DNA of 64,000 nt from an uncultured Holophagaceae bacterium (GTDB taxonomy: Bacteria > Acidobacteriota > Holophagae > Holophagales > Holophagaceae). Under the pieces are notes generated by a model. It made no database searches. It was not told the origin of the DNA and worked only from the letters and a program-made list of their open reading frames with translations. The DNA lies in contig CAIOFF010000016.1 in the NCBI GenBank assembly GCA_903857495.1, positions 1-64,000 of the forward strand, given 5' to 3'. The position numbers and the translations under genes are program-made. This document shows positions 42,464 through 44,237 of this stretch, in pieces. Each line of letters begins with the position of its first letter. Position 1 is the first letter of the stretch.

Positions 42464-43090
42464 CTAGCGGTTGAGGGGCATCACGGCCTGGATCACGACC
42501 GGTTTGCCGCTTTGGGTCTTCAGATAGCGAGCGATGGTCTCGACGTTGGCGACGACCTGGGAGATGGGCACCGCGGCGTGCAGGTCATTGTTGCCGATCA
42601 TCACGAAGTAGCAGTCGATGTCGGGTTGGACCAGCTGGTGCAGCCGCTGAAGCACATCGGCGGAGGTCTCCCCATCGACGCCCATGTTGTAGGCCTTGAT
42701 GGCCAGGAGGTCGTCCCAGGTGGCATCCCGGGTGGGATTCGGCATCTGAACCGCGTTGACGCGCCGGGTGATGGAGTCCCCGACCATGCCAGCGCAGGTG
42801 ACCTTGTTGAACGTGATGTAGGGGACGAGGCTGGCGTCGGCCCAGCGCAGGTAGCCCAGCTCCGAGAGATGCTCGCCGTCCGGCTGGTAGAAGAAGACCA
42901 GGGGCTTGCCGGTGTTGGTGAGCAGGATGGAGTAGGTGTCGAGGTAGGTGAGCTTGAGCTCCTGGGCCTTGTTGGCCAGGGCCATGTTCAGGGCCCGGAT
43001 CTCGATGTTGCTGGTGTCGCTGTTCAGCCCACCCGCACAACCGGACAGGAACAGGACACCCAGGGGCAGCAACAGAGCTCTCAGCTTCAA
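42464..43090 (-). CDS. Circularly permuted SGNH/GDSL hydrolase lipoprotein
   Basis: This 208-aa protein starts with TTG at 43090, 5 nt after GGAGG, which yields the lipoprotein signal MKLRALLLPLGVLFLSGC with C18 lipidated. SGNH blocks are all present but in rotated order. First comes what is normally the C-terminal part: EIRALNMALANKAQELKLTY and block V PDGEHLSELGY (D71, H74). Then comes the usual N-terminal part: block I GMVGDSIT (S106), block II NMGVDGET, block III MIGNNDL (N168), ending at VVIQAVMPLNR, where the normal protein would continue into EIRALN. It is therefore a circular permutation with a complete catalytic set. A longer in-frame ORF to 43300 lacks a ribosome site. Confidence 0.85.
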   Translation of the reverse strand: MKLRALLLPLGVLFLSGCAGGLNSDTSNIEIRALNMALANKAQELKLTYLDTYSILLTNTGKPLVFFYQPDGEHLSELGYLRWADASLVPYITFNKVTCAGMVGDSITRRVNAVQMPNPTRDATWDDLLAIKAYNMGVDGETSADVLQRLHQLVQPDIDCYFVMIGNNDLHAAVPISQVVANVETIARYLKTQSGKPVVIQAVMPLNR

Positions 43091-43313
43091 CCACGCCTCC
43101 AGGCAAGACACACCACGAGCCGGGCAGACCGCGGCAAAGGGAAACTCCCTTCCTTGGACCGATGATACTGGAGCGGGGTTGAATCCTGGTTCCGAATGAG
43201 GGCCCGGCGGGCCTGCTGGGCACCCGGGCCTTGGGTTATCTGGGGAGCCTCTGCCCCGGGACCGGCTCTTTCTATGTTGTGGGCTACAATGCGTCCACAC
43301 GGATGGAGCCCCC

Positions 43314-44237
43314 TTGGTTCGGGTCTACTGGAAAGCTGCCCACAAGGCCTGGGGATGGAGTCGGCACGTCTATCGCCTCAATCCGAACAGCTTGCGCTTG
43401 TTCAAGCGGCACCTGCGCTGGGCCACGGCCGCTGCCCTCCGGCCCGAGGCGGCCCTGGCCTGGTTCTCCTTCCACGAGGATGTGGCTGTGGAGGCCTTCA
43501 GCAGGGCCAACCCTCGGCTCATCTTCCGGGCCCTGACCCGCTACATGGCCGTGGGCTGGGGCCTGGCGCGCCGGACCAAGGTCATCCAGGACACCTACCT
43601 GTGCCTCCTCGGTCATGGTGGCTTCCTGGCCGAGGCCATGCGGCAGCCGGGGGGCTTGGTGCTGGCGCGCTTCGACCTGGACCGCGGCCAGAAGGGCCTG
43701 CTCCGCCTGGGCAGCGATGCCCAGTTCCGGAAGGAGGGCGAGATCTCGGTCTTCCTGGAGCTGGAGGGTGTGCCAGGGGCCATCACGGGGGTGGCCTTCT
43801 CCCTGGAACTCGGCACAGGACTGATCGTTCGCATCGGCGGGCTGCAGGGCCGCAAGGGTGGGGACGAGTCGGCCATCAAGCTGGCCACGAAAGCCATGCA
43901 CGGCCTCCGCCCCAAGAACCTCATGGTCCTGGTGGTCCAGGAAGTGGCCCGGGCCCTGGGGGCCTCCGAGCTGCAGGGGGTGGGCAACGCCATCCAGGTC
44001 TACCGAGCGCGGGTGAACAACCCCCTGGTACCCAGGCGGGACTTCCGGTTCGACTTCGATGACCTCTGGACCGAGGTCGGCGGTGTGCCCGTGGGGGACG
44101 GCTGGTTCCGGCTGCCGCTGACCACGCCCCGGCGCACGCCGGAGGAGATCAAGCCCAACAAGCGGTCCCTCTACACCAAGCGCTACCTCCTGCTGGATGG
44201 CCTCAGCGCCCAGATCCGGGAACAGCTGGCTTTCTGA
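43314..44237 (+). CDS. DUF535 (VirK/YbjX) family protein
   Basis: This 307-aa protein has the DUF535 order: an N-terminal helical part, then LLRLGSDAQFRKEGEISVFLEL, GVAFSLELGTGLIVRIGGLQG and VGNAIQVYRARVN. VirK of Shigella and YbjX belong here; roles in outer-membrane or peptide tolerance have been proposed but no activity is fixed. It starts with TTG at 43314 after GGAG; the ATG options upstream are out of frame. An extended -10-like GGGCTACAAT lies at 43281-43290. Confidence 0.82.
   Translation: MVRVYWKAAHKAWGWSRHVYRLNPNSLRLFKRHLRWATAAALRPEAALAWFSFHEDVAVEAFSRANPRLIFRALTRYMAVGWGLARRTKVIQDTYLCLLGHGGFLAEAMRQPGGLVLARFDLDRGQKGLLRLGSDAQFRKEGEISVFLELEGVPGAITGVAFSLELGTGLIVRIGGLQGRKGGDESAIKLATKAMHGLRPKNLMVLVVQEVARALGASELQGVGNAIQVYRARVNNPLVPRRDFRFDFDDLWTEVGGVPVGDGWFRLPLTTPRRTPEEIKPNKRSLYTKRYLLLDGLSAQIREQLAF

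Follow-up and report, generated by a model that had tools for sequence, protein, structure and literature searches.

SGNH domains that are circularly permuted, with the catalytic blocks in the order H-S-G-N, have been described for AlgX/AlgJ, WssI and PatB1 (PMC9487903, PMC4148444, PMC10302187). AlgX, AlgJ and WssI are envelope-located polysaccharide O-acetyltransferases in which the permuted core is accompanied by a cap and extra elements; AlgX/AlgJ carry the motifs DxH and GTSYS and a Tyr in place of the block III Asn, which is replaced by Asp in WssI. PatB1 of Bacillus cereus, of the DHHW family, is an O-acetyltransferase with a permuted SGNH core, a beta-sandwich cap and the motifs KDS, DxRY and TDHHW. 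Definitions of order and motifs for AlgX/AlgJ and PatB1/DHHW were taken from PMC9487903. With the normal S-G-N-H order, the sialate 9-O-acetylesterase PvSAE of Phocaeicola (Bacteroides) vulgatus (PDB 6NJC and 7PZG) is of the Lipase_GDSL_2 type and has GNS in block I and an N-terminal helix that controls access to the active site and is also responsible for dimer formation (PMC9063846).

The window (the whole 64,000-nucleotide stretch analysed, from an uncultured Holophagaceae bacterium) holds a gene for a small predicted lipoprotein whose blocks run V-I-II-III along the chain (D71/H74, S106, G137, N168) rather than in the usual S-G-N-H order. Like AlgX/AlgJ/WssI it combines a permuted core and the H-S-G-N order with a predicted envelope location, and like PatB1 it has a permuted core, but it is smaller than the former and carries DGEH, GDSIT and GNND, with the PatB1 motifs absent. 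The first-pass annotation knew of no SGNH lipoprotein with this permutation. This needs one qualification: the H-S-G-N arrangement as such was already known. What is new is its presence in a predicted lipoprotein that is a compact, canonical esterase of the GDSL type and keeps DxxH and GxND intact. A search of the open-access literature, subscription papers lying outside its scope, found no permuted GDSL lipoprotein. Taken as a whole, the locus is best explained, with a probability of roughly 0.75, by a genuine circular permutant of an SGNH/GDSL carboxyl-ester hydrolase that is anchored in the envelope and acts with an outer-membrane barrel protein.

Rotated order of the SGNH blocks

The features of the locus are collected in Table 1. 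The frame had been delimited exactly, although its minus strand was left unstated, and the residue numbers given for C18, D71, H74, S106 and N168 are correct. The TTG start behind GGAGG was likewise borne out, and TTG is the apparent start in all ten orthologues, so weak translation may have been kept by selection. The proposed export signal with a full lipobox also stands, with Cys18 invariant; the position before it is G in eight orthologues, S in L010 and N in L006, whose lipobox is, to judge from these residues, weaker. The gene does not lie at an edge of its 84 kb contig, and a native-order query against its own genome matched only itself. In the stretch searched, no Rfam element or sigma-70-like promoter was found, and the one terminator-like site is at chance level.

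Table 1. Features of the permuted SGNH locus in window coordinates
Feature	Coordinates	Strand	Details and basis
Small outer-membrane beta-barrel gene (predicted), 202 aa	41830..42438	-	25 nt past SGNH stop; Pfam OMP_b-brl below cut-off
Permuted SGNH lipoprotein gene, 208 aa	42464..43090	-	Stop TAG at 42464-42466; translation and orthologues
Former N-terminal SGNH part, residues 97-208	42467..42802	-	Pfam profile 2-111; AlphaFold2 strands
Block III oxyanion-hole asparagine N168 (GNND)	42587..42589	-	Sequence, orthologue alignment
Block II oxyanion-hole glycine G137 (GVDGET)	42680..42682	-	Invariant among orthologues
Block I nucleophile S106 (GDSIT)	42773..42775	-	Sequence, orthologue alignment
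Former C-terminal SGNH part, residues 28-96	42803..43009	-	Pfam profile 127-176; AlphaFold2 helices and strand
Block V, D71-x-x-H74 (DGEH)	42869..42880	-	Sequence, orthologue alignment
Signal peptide and lipobox LSGC (residues 15-18)	43037..43090	-	Cys18 codon 43037-43039; sequence, Cys18 invariant
TTG start codon	43088..43090	-	Kept at or within one codon in 10/10 orthologues
GGAGG ribosome-binding site	43096..43100	-	5 nt ahead of TTG; sequence
DUF535 (VirK/YbjX family) gene	43314..44237	+	Divergent; Pfam E 6e-53

The rotated order is seen in profile matches. In native order, two separate parts of the protein matched Pfam Lipase_GDSL_2 (60.7 bits, E 3.4e-16); when residues 97-208 were placed before residues 28-96, a single stretch covered profile positions 2-176 of 178 (64.3 bits, E 2.6e-17). 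Both scores exceed the curated cut-off of 32.9 bits. Submitted separately, the former N-terminal part, which holds strands 1-4 and blocks I, II and III, matched with E 1e-11, and the former C-terminal part, which holds a helix, strand 5, block V and the last helix of the domain, with E 0.009. A sequence search of the PDB gave the same picture: 6NJC and 7PZG aligned as two crossed pieces with the native sequence and as one continuous piece with the rotated one. The alignment with a rotated sequence that the first-pass annotation had proposed as a check is thereby supplied, and its V-I-II-III order, seen also in ten orthologues, is real. Blocks I (GDS), II (G), III (GxND) and V (DxxH) are all present and invariant in the ten sequences, in agreement with the claim of a circular permutation with a full catalytic set. 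The end at QAVMPLNR had been read as the break, and the chain is indeed opened after strand 4, directly behind a QAVMPLN strand that corresponds to QSVLPVN of 6NJC, with the same breakpoint in ten genomes.

Among solved relatives, PvSAE scores highest by sequence (56.7 bits with the profile). The two proteins share the triad, the Gly/Asn oxyanion hole, a similar block II-III region and a strand 4 ending in PVN or PLN; they differ in block order and in block I. The gating and dimerization helix of PvSAE is also missing, with room for only about nine residues from Cys18 to the first core helix and for about four from the last helix to strand 1, so that neither the substrate of PvSAE (9-O-acetylsialate) nor its oligomeric state can be transferred to the Holophagaceae protein.

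Structure prediction was sensitive to the depth of the alignment. With the ten orthologues alone, AlphaFold2 gave a poor model (pLDDT 52.5). The alignment was then deepened with native-order relatives found in the phylum, each split into halves that were entered as separate rows and unchanged from the DNA, and with stretches of two tandem SGNH proteins. On this alignment AlphaFold2 predicted a confident fold in the permuted order (pLDDT 90, pTM 0.83), in which the packing of the two halves rests on the ten orthologues, the two tandem proteins and the prior of the network, because the halves were separate rows. The check by structure prediction suggested earlier rests here on model confidence and secondary structure, which fit a permuted fold. 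The first half of the model comprises helix 28-44, strand 48-50 and helix 77-94, and the second half strands 99-104, 132-135, 160-164 and 198-201 with their helices. The five SGNH strands of the predicted sheet occur in the chain order 5, 1, 2, 3, 4, and about four residues would link the old C-terminal helix (77-94) with what was once the first strand (99-104). Foldseek returned canonical SGNH enzymes at full probability, the closest aligning over about 110 columns at 1.6-1.7 Å with TM of about 0.43-0.46, and PvSAE was among the best (1.6-1.7 Å over 110 columns). Among the matches listed, none was a good whole-chain match to a solved structure; because Foldseek aligns in chain order, such partial coverage is the signature expected of a permutant. 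A viral fold search gave matches to parts of ordinary SGNH domains only.

Distribution and origin of the permutation

Orthologues with the same breakpoints were found in 10 of 47 genomes of one Holophagaceae genus, at 68-95% identity, which answers the earlier call for homologues with the same order. Carriers in the named genome collection (L025-L032) are all Holophagaceae metagenome-assembled genomes, with no isolate among them. Cys18, D71, H74, S106, G137 and N168 are invariant in the ten sequences, and the surroundings of the motifs are conserved (for example DGEHLSELGYL, TCAGMVGDSIT and IGNNDLH). All ten proteins stop a few residues past VMP. Overall dN/dS relative to the window copy is 0.09-0.33, and each of the two halves evolves under purifying selection. 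Since ten orthologues at this range of identity keep the order and selection acts on each half, a chance order is excluded. The same evidence bears on the rival view that the order reflects faulty assembly, a rearrangement artefact or the decay of a tandem SGNH gene to a fragment. The assemblies are drafts, and tandem two-domain SGNH proteins do occur in the phylum (L043, L047 and L121), yet the arrangement is found in ten different genomes with its own signal peptide and a conserved start, stop and breakpoints; with conservation and purifying selection across the ten orthologues, we consider this explanation excluded for practical purposes.

Beyond the genus, a search for close relatives across 84,980 species genomes found them in Holophagaceae only. 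Neither 77 genomes of other Holophagaceae genera nor 93 genomes from elsewhere in the class yielded a junction-spanning match with the same block order. When 396 genomes, sampled evenly across the phylum, were searched with a query that spanned the junction, six matches fell outside the genus, all weak, and none of those examined was a permuted single domain: L043 and L047 were ruled out as tandem SGNH proteins and L046 as a peptidase-like chance match. A plasmid search gave half-length matches only.

In a tree of rotated sequences, from which AlgX-type proteins were left out, the ten permuted proteins form one group with 100/100 support among canonical GDSL-2 families. The stem branch of the group is long (2.0), the tree does not fix its nearest relative, and no normal-order ancestor was identified in it. 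An inherited rather than a new permutation would be implied if the protein were a shortened, distant relative of the permuted O-acetyltransferases (AlgX/AlgJ/WssI or PatB1/DHHW) that adds acetyl to an exported glycan. The H-S-G-N order and the envelope location are common to both (PMC9487903, PMC4148444), and SGNH motifs do not tell hydrolysis from transfer. Against this, the protein keeps GDS, GxND and DxxH instead of GTSYS, Tyr and DxH (AlgX/AlgJ) or KDS and TDHHW (PatB1), and the mature protein, at less than 200 residues, is too short for a cap or carbohydrate-binding domain. At E 10, no match was obtained to the AlgX or DHHW Pfam families (subject to the HMMER filters) or, by sequence, to the PDB chains of AlgX, AlgJ and PatB1. 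The gene neighbourhood was profiled as far as the nearest neighbours of the SGNH gene, and a polysaccharide locus may lie further away. Membership in AlgX/DHHW is thus unsupported, as the defining motifs and extra domains are missing and profile similarity is undetectable, and we judge a truncated transferase to be unlikely. Because these hallmarks are absent and the group falls among GDSL-2 families, the permutation most likely happened independently of that in AlgX/PatB1, within a lineage of canonical esterases.

Such an event most likely had a single origin, in the ancestor of part of the one Holophagaceae genus, and probably came about when the domain was duplicated in tandem and in frame and the outer halves were then lost. 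The linker of some four residues would now connect the last helix with strand 1, formerly the two ends of the domain, and the new opening would lie in the loop past strand 4, leaving VMPLN as the new C-terminus and NIEIRALN as the new N-terminus. The tandem two-domain proteins L043 (1267-2874), L047 and L121 belong to another family of the phylum. In them, block V of the first domain precedes block I of the second within one chain, as a duplication route needs, but they retain two full domains and fall on a separate branch of the tree, and they are at most candidate ancestors of the permuted protein.

Putative barrel partner and proposed function

The small gene downstream encodes a predicted barrel protein whose Pfam OMP_b-brl match is weak and under its cut-off; no NCBIfam family and no solved relative by sequence was found for it. 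Clear barrel orthologues (58-94% identity) occur in exactly the ten carriers of the permuted SGNH gene, always 17-26 nt downstream, and matches in other genomes reach only about 24-41% identity, partly over short stretches. The barrel protein is therefore a putative partner of the permuted lipoprotein. This strict pairing would also suit an accessory role, in which catalysis has been lost and the permuted protein serves the barrel by structure or binding, but the triad, the oxyanion residues and their surrounding motifs do not vary among ten sequences whose identity goes as low as 68%, and loss of catalysis appears distinctly improbable. On the other side, the divergent DUF535 gene adjoins the SGNH gene in nine carriers; in the tenth, the contig breaks off before the place where it would lie. 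It is more widespread than the SGNH/barrel pair and sits beside other genes where the pair is absent. Published work connects the DUF535 family with the outer membrane and with lipid A, although the results conflict (PMC13109725), so that this neighbour is a mere hint of an envelope role.

Returning to the reading as a permuted esterase, the invariant motifs indicate that the protein is most likely a serine hydrolase with a Ser106-His74-Asp71 triad and an oxyanion hole formed by Gly137 and Asn168. By analogy with PvSAE, the closest solved relative, the predicted substrate class is small O-acyl, probably O-acetyl, esters. The target ester would lie on an envelope glycan or lipid and would be attacked together with the barrel of about 202 residues. 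Export and, given the lipobox, lipidation on Cys18 are predicted, and the protein would probably be anchored in the outer membrane and face the periplasm. By the sorting rule of Escherichia coli, lipoproteins that lack Asp after the lipidated Cys go to the outer membrane. The residue after Cys18 is A, G or S in the ten orthologues and never D, and with the putative barrel partner this makes an outer-membrane location probable.

The permutation itself could be an adaptation to anchoring, placing the lipidated N-terminus on the side of the active site so that the pocket faces the membrane or the barrel, a suggestion that we offer tentatively and regard as rather less than likely. From the topology of the fold, the new N-terminus is expected where strand 4 ends, near the active-site loops of SGNH enzymes, so a short tether may hold the catalytic face toward the membrane. 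With the chain opened past strand 4, about nine residues of slack would remain to the lipid anchor, whereas in a lipoprotein of normal order the tether would attach where strand 1 begins, on the opposite side of the sheet.

Natural circular permutants with intact catalytic residues and many orthologues are good tests of how far a fold tolerates rewiring. Because the apparently independent permutations of AlgX/PatB1 and of the Holophagaceae protein opened the chain between the same blocks, the comparison suggests that SGNH domains are readily opened between blocks III and V. For these poorly studied bacteria, a small esterase tied to a specific barrel protein is a directly testable two-gene module. 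If the anchoring interpretation is true, the SGNH/barrel pair would represent a new outer-membrane module of two genes that removes esters at the membrane surface.
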